Assembly: GCA_947646735.1 (NCBI GenBank)
Contig: CANTFK010000991.1
Coordinates: 124,001-188,000 of the forward strand
Direction of reading: 5' to 3'
Source of the DNA: Peronospora farinosa
Lineage: Eukaryota > Oomycota > Peronosporomycetes > Peronosporales > Peronosporaceae
Length of the DNA: 64,000 nt
Positions 1 through 53,259 of the stretch are shown here, one piece after another. Position numbers and translations under genes: made by a program. Each line of letters opens with the position of its first letter. Positions within the stretch are counted from its first letter, which is position 1. The notes below the pieces were generated by a model. The model was not told the origin of the DNA. It searched no databases and saw only the letters and a list, made by a program, of their open reading frames with translations.

Positions 1-204
1 GTAGTGACTAACGTGGGCAGCAATAAATTGTTGCCCAAGTTCATCGGCCCGTTTCGTGTAGTTCGCCGCCTAGGCAACGCGTACACGTTCGAGTTGCCAC
101 GCAAGATGCGTACGCATCCTAAATTTTACGTGGGACGTCTTCGTCCGTACGTTCAGTACGCGGCTTCTTCGAGCGATGAAGATATTTATCATACCCTTAG
201 ATAA
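1..204 (+). pseudogene. Pol C-terminal fragment of Gyp-D2
   Basis: Sixty-odd codons encode the post-integrase tail typical of Ty3/Gypsy pol: LLPKFIGPFRVV, then THPKFYVGRLRPYV (the small beta-barrel GPY/F-like module that follows the integrase core). It differs from the Gyp-D copy at 20670-20984 at only a few residues and ends about 40 codons earlier. There is no chromodomain. The fragment begins at the window edge, so its upstream state is unknown. Its 3' end is overlapped by minus-strand antisense-ORF sequence, as in Gyp-D. Confidence 0.75.
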
Positions 205-545
205 CAAACTAGGTTCGATGCCTAGTCGTTTAAAAGAAGATCGTTCGATGACACTGGGCGATCTCCTGACGAGCTGCCGCCAGCTCGTCACGCAAAGATC
301 GAAGCATCCTCTCGCTCTCTAACTGTGCAACAGCAGAACTTTATGGGCATTTTCTCGGTAAAACTCAAGCTGCTGAACAGATTTCCGCAATCAGAGACGC
401 ATGTCCCACTCGTGGTCCACGTCCAGACGTATTCCACGAGTTACGTGATTAAACTGACCTATCTCGACAATCAAGTTCGACGTAACAGTCGAAACACTTA
501 TTTCCTCCACCACCGCATCCGCTGATAAATTCTCGCGATGGTTTT

Positions 546-14941: not shown

Positions 14942-14949
14942 TGTAATTG
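14942..14949 (-). repeat. Left end of Gyp-B 3' LTR, cut by Gyp-D
   Basis: TGTAATTG lies immediately left of Gyp-D; removing Gyp-D and one AATTG copy joins it to GGGTTTACACG at 23086. The joined end is an approximate inverted copy of the other LTR end (CGTGTAAC ... CCCTGTTACA, to 23805). This is an inference from LTR-end symmetry. Confidence 0.5.
14945..14949. repeat. Target-site duplication of Gyp-D, left copy (AATTG)
   Basis: AATTG directly precedes the 5' LTR and AATTG directly follows the 3' LTR at 23081-23085. A 5-bp duplication is the usual size for Ty3/Gypsy integrases, and it fixes both ends of the element. Confidence 0.9.
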
Positions 14950-15409
14950 TGTAACGGGGTGAGCCCGTTACATAATATTGACACTTATATGAAGTTCCAT
15001 AAAAATATAATTATAGCTAATAATATTTTGACAATATTACCTTTTCTTATAATATTGTCCCTAGATCTCCTTGAAGTTGGAGATGCCCTATCATTGGTTG
15101 ATATGGGCCATCATATCAACCAACGCGCTGACCAATGACCAATGGACGCGCGCAATGAGTGGAGGGCAAGTCGTCAACATACATAGTTGTAGTTTAATAT
15201 AGTTAACATAGGTTATAACAGATCAGTTTTATTAGATAGTTAACTATATTAAATACAGTTTTCTTTTCCTCTACTTCTAAGCGTATCGTTTAGAAGTAAA
15301 GCTTCCTCTGCCTCTTGTGTAAGAGAGGTAATTAAGGCACCTGCTTTCACTGTAATCAGTGAAAGTAGACTATACTGTTATCAGTATAGTCGGAGGGTGC
15401 CCCATTACA
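14950..15409 (+). repeat. Gyp-D 5' LTR
   Basis: 460 bp, starting TGTAACGGGG and ending CCCCATTACA. Nearly all of it is hairpin-forming: TGTAACGGG/CCCGTTACA at 14950-14972, 12-bp arms TTGGTTGATATG/CATATCAACCAA at 15094-15123, 15-bp arms at 15193-15207 and 15239-15253, 9-bp arms at 15344-15365, and 10-bp arms GACTATACTG/CAGTATAGTC at 15368-15391. Confidence 0.95.
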
Positions 15410-15410
15410 C

Positions 15411-15430
15411 CTGGTAGCACTTCGTGGTCC
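15411..15430 (+). promoter_or_regulatory. Putative primer-binding site of Gyp-D
   Basis: TGGTAGCA (15412-15419) lies two bases from the 5' LTR. Eukaryotic initiator Met tRNAs end in TGCTACCA, so eight bases could pair; the match does not extend further, and the following bases form a GTGGTC/GACCAC hairpin. The primer tRNA is therefore tentative. Confidence 0.45.
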
Positions 15431-15456
15431 GTTCAGCGACCACCGCACCATCCGCT

Positions 15457-16640
15457 ATGGAATCAGCGGGTGATGATTTCCGCCATTTGAGTGATCTCGA
15501 ATGGAATGCAGTTCAGCGTTTGGCTGGAACCATCGGCAACCCTGCCGTTGGTGCCATGTTGCTCTTTCTTAGCGGAGACGACTAACATGCAACCATCGCC
15601 AAGTTCATACAACATTAACTTGACGAAGTTGTAAAGAAATTCACCTTGCTAGAGAAGCAAGGTTCTTAACAGGTTGAACTGTTGAGAGAACAAGGCGCTC
15701 AACAAGCTGACTTGTTGATGCAGCAGGGTGCTCAACAGTATGAACTGTTAAGACAATAGCAGGCTAGTGCTGTTGCTGCCGGGTCAATGTGTATACGTCG
15801 ACCCGAGTCCTTGAAGATTGATGTAAGGCAGTCGAAAGCGACTTCTTGTTAAGATGGTTTGTCGGGCTCGACGATGCCATCGTGGCTCGTCGCATTGATG
15901 ACGATGCGATGAAGGTCAAGTTCGCCATGTCGAACTTGGCAGGACGTGCCAAAGCTTGGGCCTTAGGGCTCAAACTGCACGACCCATACGTTTTCCCAAC
16001 GTATGACGTCTTCAAGGCGCGGCTCAAACACACGTTTGAACCGCCTCGCGCCGAATTCGGGGCTCGGGCTGAGCTCCTGAATTTGAAACAAGGTAAACGT
16101 GATATACACGCTTAGGCCCAACACGCACGATACCTCGTTAGCTGTATCGTACTGAACCCAATCGATGAACACACGCAGGTTACTGTGTTCATTGTGGTTC
16201 CGACAGATGGTCCCGTCAAGATCCGTATGTTCCGCTTGGAACTAGAATCGCTCGATTAGGCGATCTCTGCAGCGGAACAGGAGGACTATAGCATACAACA
16301 TGCTCATTTTCACTCGGAATTTTATCGTCCACCGAGACGACAGGAAGGCGGAGGTCCAGAACCAATGGACCTCTCCTATGTAGAGAGCGAGTGACCTCGC
16401 TCTCCAGGATACAAGCGATGGCAAAAGTGCAATCGCTTTCTAACGAGGATTACTACGATTATGAGTACGCCCAGTGTCTCGTAACAATGGGAGTGACGAT
16501 CGACCGTCTGCCAAGAAGGGCCAGACACGTGGGTCCCACGTTGCTGAGAAATCGCAACAACGTGGTGGACCATCAAAAAACGGTCGGGGTCAGTAGGGGC
16601 GGAGCGCCCTACTGATCCAGCAACATCAAGAGAGCTCGCA
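15457..16640 (+). pseudogene. Gyp-D gag (broken)
   Basis: Starts at ATG 15457 (MESAGDDFRHLSDLEW) and is broken by a TAA after 43 codons and by several later stops and shifts. A Gln-rich coiled-coil segment follows, built from 33-bp repeats (15670-15702, 15703-15735 and a third partial unit) encoding variants of QxELLRxQGAQ. The capsid-like domain is legible at 15846-16115 (WFVGLDDAIVARRIDDDAMK, NLAGRAKAWALGL, FKARLKHTFEPP, LLNLKQGKRDI). No intact CCHC zinc knuckle is visible. Confidence 0.7.
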
Positions 16641-16718
16641 GGACTCCTGACGAAGGTTGCTCCCAACACACAGTCACTGTGTGTTGCCGCTCCCAGTGAT
16701 GAGGTATCCCTCATCACC

Positions 16719-17846
16719 TTGAAGATCGAAGTGACAAAGAACATGTCACTTCGTGCCCTAGTTGATTGTGAGGCTTCGAACAACTTTGTTCGACGCCAAT
16801 CGCTAGATGATCGTAGGCTCAAATATGTTAAGCGCGAGACCCCTCCAACGAGGATGACGGTGCGCCTTGCAGCTGGCGCATCCGTAACAGTAAAGAAACG
16901 TGTACTTGGAATTCACTACACGCTTGAAGGCAAAAAGTACGATGATGATTTCATCGTAATCGACCTAAATGACAAATTTGATGTCATCCTAGAATTATTA
17001 TGGCTCAGAAGGTACGAGCCATGGGTCAGCTGGCAGCATCGAACCGTGAAGATGCCTGCCCCTTGTTCATCAGATGGCCATCTGATGAACGTCTTGGAGC
17101 GTTCACAAGCGTGTATATGTACTACGAGTAAGTGCGATGGCCTCACTTGTGGTTCGGTCGTTAGTACGACTGCACAAGAACTCAGCGTGACAGACAGTCA
17201 CGCTGTGGAGCAAGCTGCCGGCGGCTGTGCACAAGCACAGGCAGCGCCGAAGGTCCACCACTTGAATAAGTCGAGTGGGCCGGGACATGAATGCTCGCCT
17301 AGAGGGCAGCATTCACCGAAGAGTAAACCGGTTGCCCAGAAGCGGCAACACTGTAATCCTAGATCAACTGGAGAGTTGATCGTAGAGGATATCGCTGTGG
17401 TTGCGCCACCACAGCTAGAGGAAGTCGATGGAACAAGTTCCATCGAGCCTGCGGGAATAAGTCCCCAAGAAATAATCACTGAGGGAATAAGTCCCCAGGA
17501 AGTAACCGAGACGTTGAACGTCTTGGTTAGTGATGGATCAAACGTAGACGCTTGTACGCTTGATCTGATCGCGCCTCCGAAGTTATCTTCGGAGATAACT
17601 CAGTTGCCTACGCTAAAACCTAAAAGGTTCTTGCGTGATCTGCGTAGTGGCAAAGTCAAGCAGATCTGTGTGCTCGTCGCAGAGGACGAGTACATGACTG
17701 ACATTCGGTCAGCAACAGTTTTTGCTGAGAACAAACGGGTTCTCAGCAGCTCATCAATGGACGAAAGTGTCCTTGATGAGAAGACTCGGATTGAGCGATA
17801 TACATCGCAATCTTGGGAGTCGCTGAAGTCAAATCCTTTTGTATAA
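16719..17846 (+). pseudogene. Gyp-D protease and linker
   Basis: An uninterrupted 375-codon frame. The aspartic protease domain occupies roughly residues 10-125: LRALVDCEASNNFV stands where active copies have LVDSGAS, so the catalytic Asp is kept but the following Ser-Gly is Cys-Glu, probably inactivating. The second half shows FDVILELLWLRRYEPWVSW (usually YDLILGMPWL). A long, low-complexity linker follows, ending in SSSMDESVL and leading to RT in the next frame at about 17839. It lacks an ATG at a sensible position; it would be made as part of a Gag-Pol polyprotein. Confidence 0.75.
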
Positions 17847-18640
17847 GGATTTGGTCGAATTCAAGGATTTATTCCCTGAATCCGTTACGTGCGAGTTGAC
17901 TAAGGATAAAGGTACTCGACACGAGATCGACCTAGTTCCTGGCACAAAATATTGTGTCATGAAGCAGTGGCCACTGCCTCGGGAACAGGTCGATGCGATC
18001 GACAAATTCTTTGCCGATCGCCTAGCAGCGAGCCATGTGATAGAGTCAACTTCACCTCACATCTATCCGACCTTCTATGTGTGCAAGGTCACAGGAGGGT
18101 GGCGGATAGTACACGTATTCAACAAGTTGAACGCTGCAACGATACCGGCGCAAACACCGATACCGAGAAAAAACGTAAGCATAGATGGTATGTCTAAGAG
18201 TACTATCTTTTCGTTCATGGATCTGATGGATGGTTTCTATCAGATCTTAATGCGTGAACGGGACATCCCGTACACAGCAGTGAGCACTCCCAGTGGTATG
18301 CTCTGGGAATGATTGGTGATGCCACAAGGGCTTAGTAATGCACCAGCCACATTCAATAGATGTGTTTCATATCTATTGAGACCGGTGCGCGATTTCGCAT
18401 CGAGTTACATCGATGATGTGTTCGTCCATAGTCGAGCTATGGACGGGAAAAAAGACGTGGAAGTCCATAGACTCCACGTCCGTAAGGTTCTTACACTTAT
18501 GCGCGAGCATAAGTTGTACGCCAGCCTCAAGAAGTGTATATTCGTACCTGCCAGATACTTCATCGTCGGAAAGAACGGCGTACGCCCTGATGTAGAAAAG
18601 ATCAAGGAGATCACCGACTGTGCCAGTGCCAGTCGGTGTC
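17839..18640 (+). pseudogene. Gyp-D reverse transcriptase (one stop)
   Basis: RT palm and fingers are readable from [20 protein letters not shown] through PTFYVCKVTGGWRIVHVFN, STPSGMLWE and MPQGLSNAPATFNR to the active-site box YIDDVFVHS (about 18403-18431). A single TGA at 18310-18312 replaces Trp in WEW, and a frameshift near 18640 ends the frame. Apart from these two lesions the domain is complete. Many inverted repeats lie inside this coding sequence, for example 18423-18445 and 18454-18480. Confidence 0.8.
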
Positions 18641-19300
18641 AAGGGACTAAGAAGGTTCCTTATGCTAGCGGCGTACTTGCACAAGTACTCGCGCAATTAC
18701 GCCGAAATGACAGTACATCTTTCTTGTTTACTCAAGAAAAATATAAAGTGGAACTGGAACGCTGATTGTCAGCGCTTATTTAAATGTATCAAGCAAAGCT
18801 TGATGCAATCGCCAGTATTGGCGATTGCCGATCAGGACAGACCATTTCATGTGGTCTGTGACGTCAGTGATTTTGCAATCGGCTGTGCACTGATGCAATA
18901 TGATACCGACGGTGCAGGCGTGTTGTCTGTTATCAATCGCGTCAGCTGCAACTGGCCGAGCACAATTACCCGGTGCATGACAAGGAACTCCTTGCCATGA
19001 AGTATGCACTGGCTAAGTTTCACTTCTATCTCTTAGGAGATAGACCGTTCACTGTGTAACAGACCATGCGTCATTTCGCACGGCTGAATACAGTTCATAT
19101 TTCTCGCAACGAATGGCGAGATGATTGCCGTTCTTCGCGAAGCACATCTTCTCCGTGGAGTATAAACTGGGGCGACTTAACATCGCCGCCGATGCTCTTT
19201 CACGTCGGCCTGACCTAGACCCGACTGTGCAATTCGACAGTGATGTAAACACCACTGTCGCCACGCTGAGTACCAGCGTCTTGTCGTAGAGCTTACTCGA
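18641..19300 (+). pseudogene. Gyp-D RNase H (frameshifted)
   Basis: Continues pol after the shift with FLMLAAYLHKYSRNYAEM, then FHVVCDVSDFAIGCALMQYD, the first catalytic Asp region of RNase H. A second shift near 18950 and a stop near 19060 break the remainder; HISRNEW and the ALSRRPD-equivalent are still recognisable to about 19220. Non-functional. Confidence 0.7.
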
Positions 19301-19346
19301 CGACATTAGAAGGGCATGCGCACAAGATAATAATCTTGTACGCCTG

Positions 19347-20333
19347 ATGTATTACCTCATGGACCCATCCAAGCAAGCTAAGAAGCGCTTGCCTGCCATG
19401 TATCGATCTTCTCTAGATCGATATACCCAGCGGAACGGCTTACTGTACTACACAGCCGTCAACAACGACACGCCTCGTGTCGTTATACCGCCACAACATG
19501 ACCTAAGGTTACGGATCATGTTTGAATGTCACGATGCACCAATAAGTGGGCATCGCGGCCGTGAGAAGACTTACCTCACGGTCAGTCGCGACTTTTACTG
19601 GCCACGCCAGTATAAGTTTGTGCGCCAGTACGTGCGTGCTTGCGAGGTGTGTCAACGAGTGAAGCCTAGTCTTTCACTCCGTGCACCATTGCAGCCTCAA
19701 CCTGTTCTGGTAGAGTGCTGGGAGTCCGTATCAATGGACTTCGTCTTTGGGTTTCCCAAAGATGCTCACGGGAATAATGGTATTCTCGTGTTTGTAGACA
19801 GGTTCAGCAAGATGGTACATCTTGTTGCTGTACCTGATTCGATCACAGCAGAGGGCTGTGCTCGAGTGTTTATCGATACAATCTGTAGATTGCACGGTTT
19901 ACCCCGTGAACTTGTGTCCGATAGGAAACCCCGGTTCACGGCTGAGTTTTGGCGTTCCGTGCTCCAAACACTTGGAACACGGCCCACTATGTCTACTTCT
20001 GACCATCCAGAAACTGATGGTCAGACTGAACGCGCCAATCGTGTCCTCGAAGAGATACTTCGAGGGTACGTCCACTCGTTTACGAGTTGGAGTGAGCTCT
20101 TGTCGATGGTCGAATTCGCCATCAACAACTCAGTGCATGCTTCCACGACGCATACACCATTCTACGTGAATGGCCTTCGCCATCCACGTGTCCCCACCTT
20201 AGTAGAGGCTGACTCTAATTTAAGGGGGAGGAGAGACTCGCTCGAGCGAGAACCAATCTGGCTCTTGCTCATCACGCTACGACGTTATAGTCGACGCGAA
20301 AGCAACCGAAGTCGTGCCATTCGACTTCGGTGA
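19347..20333 (+). pseudogene. Gyp-D integrase, intact frame
   Basis: The longest healthy stretch of the element, 328 codons. HHCC zinc site: ECHDAPISGH ... CEVCQRVKPS. Catalytic DDE triad all present: Asp in VSMDFVFG, Asp in SDRKPRF (usual SDRDPRF, with Lys replacing the non-catalytic Asp) and Glu in DGQTERANR. After the core come EFAINNSVHAS and FYVNGLRHPRVP. The frame is lost in the linker near 20300. As part of a broken polyprotein it is scored as a pseudogene, though the domain itself looks competent. Confidence 0.8.
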
Positions 20334-20984
20334 AGAGGAAGAAAGTAAGAGCGATGGCGCTCTTACTGATAACGATGCTGAAGATATCAGCATCGCTCGA
20401 GGTATCACAAGTGAGAACAGTAATGTTCTCGCTGAATTAGCAGCCGATATCTCTGTAGTGCATTCACAATGCACTGCAGCCAAAAGCAACGAGTCAGCTG
20501 AGAATTTCCTGCTGACTCGTGAAGCGGTAGTCCGTTTCGTGCTAGACTCCATCGCATAATCGGTGGATAAGCAAAAGCGAAACGCAGACAATAATGGAAG
20601 GGCAAATGCTCAGACATTTATTAAAGTTGATTTAGTTTTACTGTCAACAGTAACCTACCTAAACATGTAGTGACTAACGTAGGCAGCAATAAATTGTTGC
20701 CCAAGTTCATCGGCCCGTTTCGTGTAGTTCGCCGCCTAGGCAACGCATACACGATCGAGTTTCCACGCAGGATGCATACGCATCCTACATTTTACGTGGG
20801 ACGTCTTCGTCCGTACGTTCAGTACGCGGCTTCTTCGAACGACGAAGATAGCCATTACTCTCAAGAATCTTCTTCAGATTTTTGCTGTCACGAACCAGAT
20901 TCGAAACCTGGTCGTGTAACGATGAGATCGTCCCATGATATTGGACGATCTCCTGACGACCTGTCGCCAGCTCGTTACTTATAG
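20334..20984 (+). pseudogene. Gyp-D pol tail (barrel domain)
   Basis: A helical linker (20334-20640, broken by stops; almost every 25 bp forms a perfect hairpin) leads to the terminal module NKLLPKFIGPFRVVRRLGNAYT and HPTFYVGRLRPYV, ending at 20982-20984. No chromodomain follows. The last 200 bp overlap the antisense ORF that ends at 20785 on the other strand. Confidence 0.7.
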
Positions 20985-22520
20985 AATGAAGCCGCCGCTC
21001 ATTATCCAATAGTGCGACAACATTGTTTGCCCGAGACTTCTCATGGTGAAACCTAAGCTGTCGCACAATGCCCTCTAAGCGGCGACTCTTACTTCGTTCG
21101 TGATTAACGTCACAACAGAGCTCACGAGTTACACAGGCAAACCCGTCTAACTCAGTAGCCAAGTCCGATAAAAAAATCGGACAGGGTTTATCCTCCACCA
21201 CCGCATCCGCTGGTGGACTATCATGGTGGAAAGCGCTTCCTCGAGGAACGCTTACTAAAGCATTGCGAGGTGAAGGGACGTCGGACGAGCTATCTTGTCC
21301 GGTGGCGTGGCTATCCGCCTTCGGCGGATAGCTGGGAACCTCGGGCTCAACTGATGGCCGACGTTCCCGACCTTGTCGAATAGTACGACAAGGGACACCC
21401 GATGGTGAAGAGGGACCTTCGGAAAACGAGCGCCCAGCGCTCTTGTAAATGATCTGAAAAGTATCAATCCTTTCACGCATCCCAGAAGAGATGCGAGCTC
21501 TCTACCAGGGCTCATCAGGAGGTAAGCTTCCTTACGCGCTCTTGACGAGGTGCTCAGGCACCCCGGGAATGGGTTGCCCCAAGAGAGGCATAACAGGCCT
21601 GCCTATCTAGATAATTGGTGCAAACGATAGAATGCACCGGACGTACTTCGTTTCTTAAACTTATTGCGGCTAGCAAAAAGTCTGAAACCAAGCCTCTTTC
21701 CCAAAGTCTAAGACGTTGGTAATAAACGCGTTCAAACATTGGAGTAACGCGTCAGCCTCACGCTTCTTGTATGGGCCATACCATCGATGTTCAAGAAACA
21801 CATCGATGTAATATTCGCTCTCAGTGCGAAAGTTCTTCGCACTGGCGTCAAGGCCATGAAGCTTTGACGCATCAAACAACGGTATGAGGAACCTTTCGTT
21901 GGTCTTTCCAGACCAACGATTAAGCAGATGCTTAGGTAGCATCCATGGCTTGCGATCAGGAGCAAGACGCAATACGTTGCGGTCTAAAGGCTCCTTCGTG
22001 GTGTCAACAGAAGTACCGACACCACAGCATTAGTGTCAACAGAAGTACCGACACTACGAGCATTGATGTCAGTAGAAGCACTGACATCACCCTTACCGTC
22101 CCCACCCGAGTCACTATCCTTCGACTCGTTTGGCGAGTCGTCTGATTCATCAGACGACCCGAACATTTCACGGTAGATTGATTCACTCAATGTACCACGA
22201 TCCCTCTTCGTAACATTTGACGACGAGGTATCACCCCGGGGAGAGCCCGGGAGTGAAACAGGTGACTTTGAGCCGAATGCGTCATCCTACTCACCAGAGT
22301 AGTCAACGACTATCTCTGGGTCAACATCTTCACGTGGCGAAGCGCTACGTGAACCTGCAACAGGCGTTGCAGGCTGATGTTGACTTCCAGCAGACACATT
22401 AGTGTCTGTTGGCTAAGGCTGTGAAGCCTCAGTAGCGGCTGCACACAGGCGTGCAGCCGAGCTCTTAGCTGCCTTAGCTGCCTTAGCTGCCTTAGCAGCG
22501 ACGCGCATTGACTTTGTCAT
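20785..22520 (-). pseudogene. Gyp-D antisense ORF (broken, coiled-coil C-terminus)
   Basis: Reads from ATG 22520-22518 (MTKSMRVAAKAAKAAKAAKS, encoded by a fourfold 9-bp repeat), about 100 bp inside the 3' LTR, towards pol. Blocks: acidic Ser/Asp stretch (SSDESDDSPNESKDSDSGGD near 22150); conserved middle domain (21960-21670; KPWMLPKHLLNRW, EHRWYGPYKKREADALLQ, NAFITNVLDFGKEAW); Pro/Ser-rich segment (21480-21250); and a long helical region (about 21120-20870; GIVRQLRFHHEK, LLDNERRLHSISNEL, SSLHDQVSNLVRDSK) likely to be a coiled coil. At least four stops or shifts divide it; the last 231-codon piece is intact. No known family recognised. Confidence 0.65.
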
Positions 22521-22606
22521 AGCGAAAAAAGGTTGGAATAAAAATAAAATTCCACAAGTGCTCCTTTCCCATAGTCACTAAACAGTCACTTATGTGATTG
22601 TTGGTT

Positions 22607-22617
22607 GAAGGGGGGGG
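22607..22617 (+). promoter_or_regulatory. Polypurine tract of Gyp-D
   Basis: GAAGGGGGGGG followed by TGA lies directly before the 3' LTR. An uninterrupted purine run here is the expected primer for plus-strand DNA synthesis. Similar tracts precede the 3' LTRs of Gyp-A, B, C and E. Confidence 0.8.
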
Positions 22618-22620
22618 TGA

Positions 22621-23080
22621 TGTAACGGGGTGAGCCCGTTACATAATATTGACACTTATATGAAGTTCCATAAAAATATAATTATAACTAATAATATTTT
22701 GACAATATTATCTTTTCTTATAATATTGTCCCTAGATCTCCTTGAAGTTGGAGATGCCCAATCATTGGTTGATATGGGCCATCATATCAACCAACGCGCT
22801 GACCAATGACCGATGGACGCGCGCAATGAGTGGAGGGCAAGTCGTCAACATACATAGTTGTAGTTTAATATAGTTAACATAGGTTATAACAGATCAGTTT
22901 TATTAGATAGTTAACTATATTAAATACAGTTTTCTTTTCCTCTACTTCTAAGCGTATCGTTTAGAAGTAAAGCTTCCTCTGCCTCTTGTGTAAGAGAGGT
23001 AATTGAGGCACCTGCTTTCACTGTAATCAGTGAAAGTAGACTATACTGTTATCAGTATAGTCGGAGGGTGCCCCATTACA
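22621..23080 (+). repeat. Gyp-D 3' LTR
   Basis: 460 bp, same ends as the 5' LTR, differing at five positions. All the inverted repeats described in the 5' LTR are unchanged in their arms. Confidence 0.95.
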
Positions 23081-23085
23081 AATTG

Positions 23086-51229: not shown

Positions 51230-51324
51230 CTTCGTATTTGCTACCCATTGTAGTACGGGTCGATCTCTTTTGCTTTGCATCGATAGCAGCCACGTAGAAT
51301 TCTTCAGCCATGAACTCAGTCAGT

Positions 51325-53259
51325 GTAACGGGGTGAGTCCGTTACATAATATTGACATTTCTATGAAGTGTGAATAAAAATAGGGAGTTAGCTATATTCT
51401 CACCCTTTTTCCTTAAATTCACACCCATTTCATTTTAAAAATATATATATGAATAATCTAGGGGAGATGCTATTATATTCACACCCTTCACATTTTGGGA
51501 ATATCTATATAAATAGCACCCTCTAAAAGTATGGATCTAATAAACAATTGAAGAGTAATTTCCTTACCATTGCGTTGTGTGGCTAATCCAAATGTCATTG
51601 CTCATGAAAGTCAATTTTTGTTAGAGCCCCTTCCTGTTAGTTTCCGTTAGCTTGTGAGCGCAAGGGAGACCCATGGTAGAGGTAATCACCATGGTGCAAC
51701 AAGCTCTCTGCTCTGCTTTTCCCTCAGATTTTTCGAGACAATTTTTGAGCGCACAGGCTAAAATCTTTTCAGATACTGAAGCAAAAATTGATGGCAACTT
51801 GTTTGAATGACGCACCTTCTCTCTGCTGCGCTGCGTTTCTTCACATTTACGCTGCAAAAGTATATTTGCTGAACACTGACAGCAAGTCCCCTGTTGACAC
51901 TTACCAAAAAGTTTAATGTAAGCATAAGCGCCTTCAACCCGAGATGTAGCTTTGTTGCCGAAATAGAGATACTTTAACGTCCAAGCTTGTACAAAGCGCT
52001 CCTTTTATAAACGCCACGTATTTGAGAGGAATTTGAAAAATGTCGGTTTACTTTTTAAACCGTGTGACAGCTCTTCCCGCTTTTTTCATTTTCCACTTCT
52101 GTGTTAACCACAAGGAGCAAACACCCCAGTGTTGGGGGAATTAGTCCCCCACCTGGTGCAGCGGTAACGCACCCACCTGATGACCCAGCGGTCACGGGTT
52201 CGATTCTCACTCGCGCAAGACTTCAGATTCATGGATCCATTCCTCGTTCATCTCAAATTGATTTTTGCATTTGGCCAGGATGTTCTTTTTAATGTGCCAT
52301 ATGCACAGCACGATCTTTCACAATAACAACTGGCATGTCTCAGGTGTCCAAATAGTAGCAAGTTTAGATAATGCCCACACGCATTCATTATGCTTCTCTA
52401 CCTTCAAAAAGCAGAAGCCGAGCGAGAAATAAGTATTGAAGTTTGTCATACCTACGATGTAAAGTAAGGGGAGCTGGTACTGGTTTGCTTCGTATGTACA
52501 GTCCATAAGCGCATCAGGATAATATTGGCGACTAGCTTTAATACTTTCATGGTAAGCAAAGAAAAGAGAGGTAATTGTTCTATGTTAATCACATCGGTGA
52601 ATGTGAATACATTTGGACGATTGTAAGTATAGCGGAGCGACACAGCTCTTTAGCCAGAGGAAGACTTTAGGCTGGGCCTCTTAGTTCTAGAGAACTAAAT
52701 AGAGTTGAGGCTAAAAGCCACTTAGTTCTAAAGAACTAATTAAACGACTTAAAGTCACCCTGTTCTAAGGAACGAGGAGGGACTTTTAGTCTGCAAGCAA
52801 TAAGCTTAAGGTTCAGAGAACCAACGCACAGAGTGCAAGAGCAAGCTAGAAGCTTAAGGTTCAGAGAACCAACGCACGAAGTGCACAAAAAACAAGTCAG
52901 AACGACTTGCGATCTTAAACTCAAAAGGAGAACTGATTATATTTATGCATTAAGATTTTATGAAAAGTCCTACTCTAAGTGCCCTACACTAGATTACTCA
53001 CTATATAGTAATTATAATATGAAGACTTTTGCTATTGGACGATGTATCGTCTAAATATCTGTGTATGATGTACTTAGTATAGCGTTATCGATCATCGAAT
53101 TCTAATCGATAGGATACGGTATTACCGAATATCGTATCTTAACGCTCAAACTCAAAACCTCTCTAAAGAGAAGTATAATAATGCATTATATGCAATAAAA
53201 GGAAAATTCAACCGTAAACTTTCGGAAAGACGCTACAACCGTCGTGTAACCCCGTTACA
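51325..53259 (-). mobile_element. Gyp-E 3' LTR region (1935 bp between matching ends)
   Basis: Starts TGTAACGGGG and ends CCCCGTTACA, an exact 10-bp inverted pair, and its right end touches a purine tract (GTGGGGGAGAG on the minus strand, 53260-53270), as expected for the 3' LTR of minus-oriented Gyp-E. The left 35 bp closely resemble the start of the Gyp-D LTR. A TATAAATA box lies at about 51509 in plus orientation. At 1.9 kb it is long and includes a tRNA-like segment, so it may contain a nested insertion. The right 600 bp are hairpin-rich, e.g. TTAGTTCT/AGAACTAA twice near 52690 and 52728. The boundaries come only from end symmetry. Confidence 0.5.
52135..52225 (+). repeat. tRNA-like (SINE head or tRNA relic)
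   Basis: TGGTGCAGCGGTAACGC (52154-52170) fits a pol III A box and GGGTTCGATTC (52196-52206) fits a B box, with tRNA-like spacing. The anticodon arm does not fold cleanly and the acceptor ends do not pair, so this is not a functional tRNA. Either a SINE 5' region or a tRNA pseudogene. Confidence 0.45.

Follow-up and report, generated by a model that had tools for sequence, protein, structure and literature searches.

We examined a 64,000-nucleotide stretch of Peronospora farinosa DNA (contig CANTFK010000991.1, positions 124,001 to 188,000; hereafter the window), in which positions 14950-23080 are a complete Ty3/gypsy-type chromodomain long terminal repeat (LTR) retrotransposon that we call Gyp-D. 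This element, referred to below as the window copy, carries short perfect hairpins along its whole length, a pattern that is almost certainly real and extreme. The hairpins occur in large excess, are present throughout the family and are equally strong on both strands, and their arms are under constraint while the lineage replicates but no longer so once a copy has inserted. With some reservation, we favor the explanation that purifying selection acts along the entire element for short, perfect, strand-symmetric hairpins, whose job we infer.

Perfect inverted repeats with arms of at least 8 bp and loops of at most 15 bases number 69 between positions 14950 and 23074, against a mean of 1.87 and a maximum of 6 in 60 dinucleotide shuffles; the internal region holds 56 (mean 1.67 and maximum 6, again in 60 dinucleotide shuffles). 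A first-pass annotation of this DNA had noted at least 33 such repeats where about two were expected by chance. The excess and the expectation both hold, although its count is about half of the true one. Each of the 20 internal examples that it listed is a perfect inverted repeat with arms of at least 8 bp (one, 17724-17747, is corrected here to 17723-17748, with 10-bp arms), but the arms of up to 15 bp that it described do not occur in the window copy, where the longest in this set is 13 bp. Hairpins cross the LTRs, gag, pol and the antisense open reading frame (ORF), as it had stated. Its suggestion that codon choice is bent toward pairing is borne out, in that six coding stretches from this copy contain 32 inverted repeats compared with a mean of 1.69 and a maximum of 5 in 200 synonymous-codon shuffles; the codon-preserving shuffles, named there as a result that could overturn the claim, fail to reproduce the hairpin count. 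Four host ORFs in the window, counted in the same way as the coding stretches of the element, contain 1 inverted repeat in total. Hairpin density falls at the element borders, from 69 in 8.1 kb inside to 14 in 14.9 kb and 39 in 40.9 kb in the flanks, which include other Gypsy sequence and likewise exceed their own shuffles (14 versus 3.1 and 39 versus 7.6). Short tandem repeats inside the element are few. Chance, base composition or a tandem-repeat artefact is ruled out by the dinucleotide and codon shuffles together with the other genomic copies and the fold z-scores described below, and we put its probability at practically nil.

An integrase search listed 121 matches in the genome, most at 80% identity or more, and 117 of 3251 candidates were scored. 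Twenty other family loci in the same genome (8.6-9.8 kb each) carry 54-123 hairpins per locus, some of these copies being partial, and the better-kept copies have about 100 each. Rows for single copies were pieced together from separate matches per locus. In truncated copies, the LTR columns may belong to the opposite LTR, and at a few loci parts of two neighboring copies are present. Aligning the window copy with 19 others gave 20 rows, across which we identified 107 stems; family-level stems outside the 3' LTR number 101. The absence of hairpins at homologous sites in other members had also been named as grounds for giving up the claim, and the 19 other members retain 65-98% of their readable stems (51-101 each), a result that is partly circular in that the stem definition included those copies. 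Among the 20 rows, decay has gone furthest in the window copy, in which 47 of 101 stems are perfect versus the 65-98% seen elsewhere.

The arms make up 24% of the element and 21-31% of each of its parts (LTR, gag, pol, the third sense ORF, the overlap and the antisense ORF), with a stem density of about one per 75 bp and arms mostly of 8-10 bp. Among stems with loops of 3-9 bases, there are 35 of 6 bp, 15 of 7 bp, 26 of 8 bp, 26 of 9 bp, 17 of 10 bp, six of 11 bp, six of 12 bp and none longer than 12 bp, and the lengths peak at 8-9 bp without a geometric fall-off. Loops of 4 bases are commonest (28 of 107), followed by 5 (15) and 6 (12), and about half of all loops have 4-6 bases. Dicer substrates are stems of about 20 bp or more. 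Production of small interfering RNA, one of the functions raised in the first-pass annotation, therefore fits poorly with stems that end at 12 bp and a few arms that reach 15 bp, which are short for Dicer. Allowing loops of up to 40 bases in eight copies, we surveyed perfect stems and found none of small-RNA-precursor length, the longest arm being 15 bp.

Predicted folding energies were computed as z-scores in 150-nt windows and as excess folding energy (MFED; ViennaRNA, 350-nt windows, 10 shuffles). For L012, a family copy with open reading frames, the mean z is -5.76 on the sense and -5.68 on the antisense strand, with 81 of 81 sense windows below -2, and a 991-nt piece of it gives z-scores of -17.5 and -17.1 on the two strands (20 shuffles each). 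The window copy has mean z-scores of -4.12 sense and -4.19 antisense, and the control region at 28-58 kb has -0.43 and -0.38. The MFED of L012 is 49.8% sense and 50.4% antisense, with a minimum of 35.5% among 23 windows; other Gyp-D copies reach 37.4% (window copy), 42.8% (L031) and 32.7% (L032), and the control 4.0%. In a published virus panel used to define genome-scale ordered RNA structure (GORS), MFED runs from -3.6% to 16.0% with a threshold of 3% (PMC3950689; UNAFold, 300-base fragments, 50 shuffles), and Gyp-D lies above 3% throughout (all 23 windows of L012).

Two whole Gypsy elements outside the family, L029 and L030, were compared. L029, a neighboring element that starts near 59.6 kb, has 20 hairpins in 9.9 kb (loops 3-12), mean z-scores of -1.28 sense and -1.44 antisense and an MFED of 10.5%; L030, whose integrase is 57% identical, has nine in 8.1 kb (loops 0-15), with -1.58, -1.92 and 11.2%, respectively. 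Conservation of hairpin positions between families can be set aside, with just 1 of the 11 L029 pol hairpins compared sharing its centre with a Gyp-D hairpin; the trait therefore looks like a density that rose in one lineage and not like a set of fixed old signals. The stretch of the window that runs into L029 (59644-64000) belongs to a minus-strand Gypsy family with open frames, antisense-oriented ORFs of its own and a milder hairpin excess, and the L029 reverse transcriptase has 103 matches listed in the genome.

To separate constraint from mutation, we divided variants into private ones, present in one copy, and shared ones, present in two or more; the former would be mostly post-insertion and the latter mostly derived from the replicating lineage. 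In the main split, the window copy, L031 and L032 served to define the stems, and variation was measured in the 19 other copies, leaving out the 3' LTR columns. Shared variants fall at 22 of 1916 arm positions, 30 of 595 loop positions and 147 of 5096 positions elsewhere (Fisher p 1e-7 and 1e-5), and private variants are alike across the three classes (247/1916, 84/595 and 692/5096). The shared pattern recurs at third codon positions (10/537 in arms, 15/163 in loops, 67/1423 elsewhere), and further analyses of the variants point the same way. Comparison of the two LTRs within 12 copies reveals no protection of arms, with differences at 22 of 1675 arm, 12 of 505 loop and 42 of 3306 other positions. 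Shared variants are depleted in arms and private and LTR-LTR differences are not, and the constraint therefore lies in the replicating lineage and not in the chromosome; by this reading of the sequences, arms would mutate like other sites once inserted and be constrained while the family replicates. Selection on structure, one of two causes that the first-pass annotation had put forward, agrees with this contrast. An early arm statistic (1.6% in arms versus 6.5% outside) was dropped because stems had been defined on the window copy and then compared with it. Some bias is left in the main split, as sites variable in the family are somewhat less likely to lie inside perfect arms of the window copy, L031 and L032, and we judge it too small to account for a depletion of 2.5- to 4.4-fold. 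Five copies of greater divergence have 40 two-sided changes, of which 27 are again Watson-Crick pairs, LTR sites being counted twice; without 3' LTR duplicates there are 16 distinct restored sites, and in slid controls two-sided changes of all kinds number about 26. Over longer times, then, compensation does take place, as selection on structure would predict.

The other cause proposed was repair of imperfect palindromes by template switching, in which one arm is often rewritten on the template of the other, by the element's reverse transcriptase or during host replication, and no function is required. Such a process accounts for the strict Watson-Crick pairing, the sharp stem ends and the strand symmetry, yet we consider it unlikely as the overall explanation. 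That switching occurs is supported by seven exact loop inversions among 123 loops in 25 aligned copies, each private to one copy (one requires just two base differences), as against 1 in 20 sets of control spans. The inversion in L024 probably arose after integration, because it is present at one of its two LTRs only. The published accounts that we draw on describe template switching that homogenizes arms and inverts spacers in yeast (PMC8604942) and that can create and maintain RNA hairpins (PMC8794818). L031 also has an adjacent TT to AA change matched on the other arm (15275-15276/15294-15295), a site at which two copies are changed on one arm only.

The arm-repair part of the proposal fares worse. 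By our expectation, repair should spread roughly half of all arm mutations to both arms, but shared two-sided changes were seen in 0 of 954 pairs in the main variant split, and the loop inversions are all private. Repair of the arms at the level of the host is ruled out, as the arms have no deficit of private or LTR5-LTR3 differences. Templated multi-base hairpin gains were likewise rejected: hairpins gained by some copies mostly differ by one base from the commonest sequence, the exceptions being L014 and L026 (two in one arm), an LTR form common to several copies (five, probably an indel relative to the window copy) and two in L033. The far lower hairpin numbers of L029 and L030 also count against switching. 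Because shared two-arm changes are absent, switching is argued against as the keeper of the hairpins; it may have created some of them, and what keeps them perfect now is probably not switching.

If purifying selection is responsible, which molecule it sees becomes the next consideration. Selection on the sense genomic RNA only, for packaging, compaction or stability as in GORS viruses, would agree with hairpins that cover everything contained in the genomic RNA and with a sense MFED of 49.8%. Loops of 4-5 bases, which suit RNA hairpins, are frequent. Structured RNAs are expected to favor G-U over A-C, and shared one-sided arm variants do lean that way, with nine G-U to four A-C in the main split and 17 to 11 in a second count (background 57 to 55 outside arms and 16 to 23 in loops). 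The other counts lean in the opposite direction. Fixed stem interruptions comprise six G-T, 17 A-C and 13 other pairs, or 14, 17 and 23 in a second count with redundant stems, and among the pairs flanking stems, A-C exceeds G-U both just outside (22 to 16) and just inside (14 to 8); the first interruption count and the stem-end counts leave out the 3' LTR columns. The antisense strand moreover folds as well as the sense strand (MFED 50.4%, z -5.7). Taken together, the G-U and A-C counts indicate no clear sense-strand preference, and a purely sense-RNA target strikes us as distinctly unlikely, whereas both strands are likely to matter.

Selection at the level of DNA, on hairpins in single-stranded cDNA or on cruciforms that affect chromatin, integration or reverse-transcription intermediates, fits this strand symmetry. 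The loop inversions suggest that arms pair in DNA or during DNA synthesis, and the fixed pairs lean toward minus-strand wobble (17 A-C to six G-U). Arms of 8-12 bp are nevertheless short for cruciform extrusion, and the chromosomal copies show no arm protection between their two LTRs. We regard this explanation as very improbable.

In the explanation that we favor, purifying selection would shape the whole Gyp-D sequence into its chain of short perfect hairpins, and the selected object would be the element's own nucleic acid during its life cycle, in a form in which both strands matter: either sense and antisense transcripts or genomic RNA and single-stranded cDNA. The hairpins would keep transcripts folded locally, making them poor targets for small-RNA-guided silencing and slow to anneal with antisense RNA, while the stems would stay below the length that Dicer cuts. 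Such local folding against silencing and annealing is the most likely job of the hairpins, and shielding of this kind would fit both the short stems and the antisense ORF. A more specific version, in which about 100 hairpins of sub-Dicer length armor both strands such that self-folding of the sense and antisense transcripts outpaces their annealing and targeting, is offered tentatively and is, on its own, rather unlikely.

Several observations weigh against this explanation. In noncoding stretches, shared variants occur at 5 of 190 arm, 3 of 58 loop and 16 of 317 other positions, a difference that is not significant, although random half-splits of the noncoding columns that include the 3' LTR give 0.4%, 8.6% and 3.6%, respectively. 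Older, more divergent copies have arm differences only slightly below those elsewhere, as would be expected if most differences arose after insertion. The antisense ORF spans only the last 1.8 kb, but the hairpins span the whole element, and L029 and L030 also carry antisense-oriented ORFs downstream of integrase with much less structure. The internal sequence common to the window copy and its neighbor L009 has lost half of its stems as well as its ORFs, yet the LTRs of the window copy differ at just 5 of 460 positions; if the window copy moved after this decay, one round of transposition needs no hairpins. Finally, the explanation is a demanding one: for about 100 stems to have lost 60-77% of their shared variants, selection must have acted on many small changes.

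The features of the window copy are collected in the table below; its gag and pol coordinates were mapped over from L012, and those of the third sense ORF (ORF3) leave out its first 47 bases, which overlap the end of pol. A target-site duplication, AATTG, flanks the two LTRs at 14945-14949 and 23081-23085. The 1239-aa frame of L012 has the domain order RVP_2, RVT_1, RT_RNaseH, H2C2 and rve, the PR-RT-RNaseH-INT arrangement of Ty3/gypsy elements (Metaviridae). The ORF3 of L012, downstream of integrase, matches the PF00385 chromodomain at 53 bits, a position that suggests that Gyp-D is of the chromovirus type. L016 and L013 have open frames similar to those of L012.

Table. Features of Gyp-D in the window copy
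Feature	Position	Strand	Description
5' LTR	14950..15409	+	460 bp, TG...CA; opens with a 9-bp hairpin; eight family-level stems of 7-12 bp
Perfect inverted repeats	14950..23074		n = 69; arm at least 8, loop 0-15; across LTRs, gag, pol, ORF3 and antisense ORF
Primer-binding site	15412..15422	+	11 bases complementary to the tRNA-Met (CAT anticodon) 3' end plus CCA
gag	15424..16596	+	Retrotrans_gag, Ty3 capsid, weak zinc knuckle; broken in window copy, open (405 aa) in L012
Loop inversion example	16544..16557		14-base exact reverse complement of the common family form, in L019 only
pol	16647..20333	+	Protease, reverse transcriptase, RNase H, integrase; broken in window copy, single 1239-aa frame in L012
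Perfect palindrome in pol	17065..17090		26 bp; reverse-strand self-match, full-length in 20 of 39 other copies listed, 25 bases in 10 more
ORF3 (third sense ORF)	20334..21464	+	SH3_Tf2-1-like and chromo domains; 391 aa in L012
Antisense ORF	20785..22578	-	590 aa in L012; overlaps the opposite-strand chromodomain ORF by ~680 bp
Polypurine tract	22608..22617	+	AAGGGGGGGG, directly before the 3' LTR
3' LTR	22621..23080	+	Identical to the 5' LTR at 455 of 460 positions

The antisense ORF is conserved in the Gyp-D family. Its protein has 92 relatives, and the organisms named among them are Peronospora effusa, P. matthiolae and Hyaloperonospora arabidopsidis, in keeping with a Peronospora-like downy mildew as the host. 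The ORF family is numerous in P. matthiolae, where one cluster has 524 members, and two H. arabidopsidis relatives are labeled 'RxLR effector candidate', apparently a name given to a transposon ORF. tRNA genes that match the primer site are present in the same genome, the name tRNA-Met coming from the anticodon reading; one contig (C200, 8-11689) holds an array of identical tRNA-Met genes of this matching kind, 15 by pattern and many about 575 bases apart. A search of viral contigs yielded no match.

About 20 kb upstream of the window copy lies L009 (C271:118085-126700), which is 98-100% identical to window positions 16550-20550 over about 4 kb of internal sequence and has LTRs only about 80% alike, probably reflecting a recent exchange between neighbors and an old, decayed internal part. 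The L009 LTR (C271:118404-118984) is a lone variant among the places scored, with 39 other long matches at 79-81% identity. It retains several Gyp-D hairpins, with some compensatory changes, and the loop of its leader hairpin is the reverse complement of the L012 loop. The tail of L009 extends into the start of the window (1-335 and 1628-2314), where one stretch of the 3' part is only 65% like Gyp-D. A 59-base fragment at 51324-51382, 90% like the start of the Gyp-D LTR and carrying the terminal hairpin with 8-bp arms, is probably an LTR remnant.

In Gyp-D, the same bases serve structure, coding and LTR function at once. If the shielding explanation is correct, the armor could allow the element to express overlapping mRNAs from both strands without supplying RNA interference with substrate, a way of evading silencing that depends on structure and not on sequence. 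The less structured Gypsy elements of the same genome provide a natural experiment on the role of whole-genome structure in a mobile element, be it silencing escape, packaging or mutational outcome, and setting shared against private variants helps to tell selection from mutation bias without any wet-lab work.

Compared with known systems, Gyp-D has the same LTRs, tRNA-Met primer site, polypurine tract, gag, protease, reverse transcriptase, RNase H, integrase and chromo domain as Ty3/gypsy chromoviruses, and differs from them in its whole-element perfect hairpins and in the conserved antisense ORF that overlaps the chromodomain ORF. The first-pass annotation knew of no Gypsy group with this property, and in the literature searched we likewise found no Gypsy element with element-wide perfect hairpins. 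Like the GORS of persistent RNA viruses, Gyp-D folds far above its shuffles over its full length, coding regions included; unlike it, the structure consists of discrete, perfect, short hairpins that are equal on both strands, and the MFED of about 50% is some threefold the panel maximum (16.0%, for its most structured virus), which was measured by a somewhat different method (PMC3950689). Maize Sirevirus LTRs, as described in PMC10760457, resemble it in having clustered palindromes and strong predicted structure in an LTR retrotransposon, but they have a repeated motif, and their structured regions are enriched in small RNAs, whereas Gyp-D has about 100 different hairpins in its LTRs and coding sequence. 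The exact loop inversions in single copies are like the template-switch mutations at inverted repeats described in PMC8604942 and PMC8794818; in contrast, the coupled arm changes to be expected from ongoing arm homogenization are absent from the shared variants of Gyp-D.

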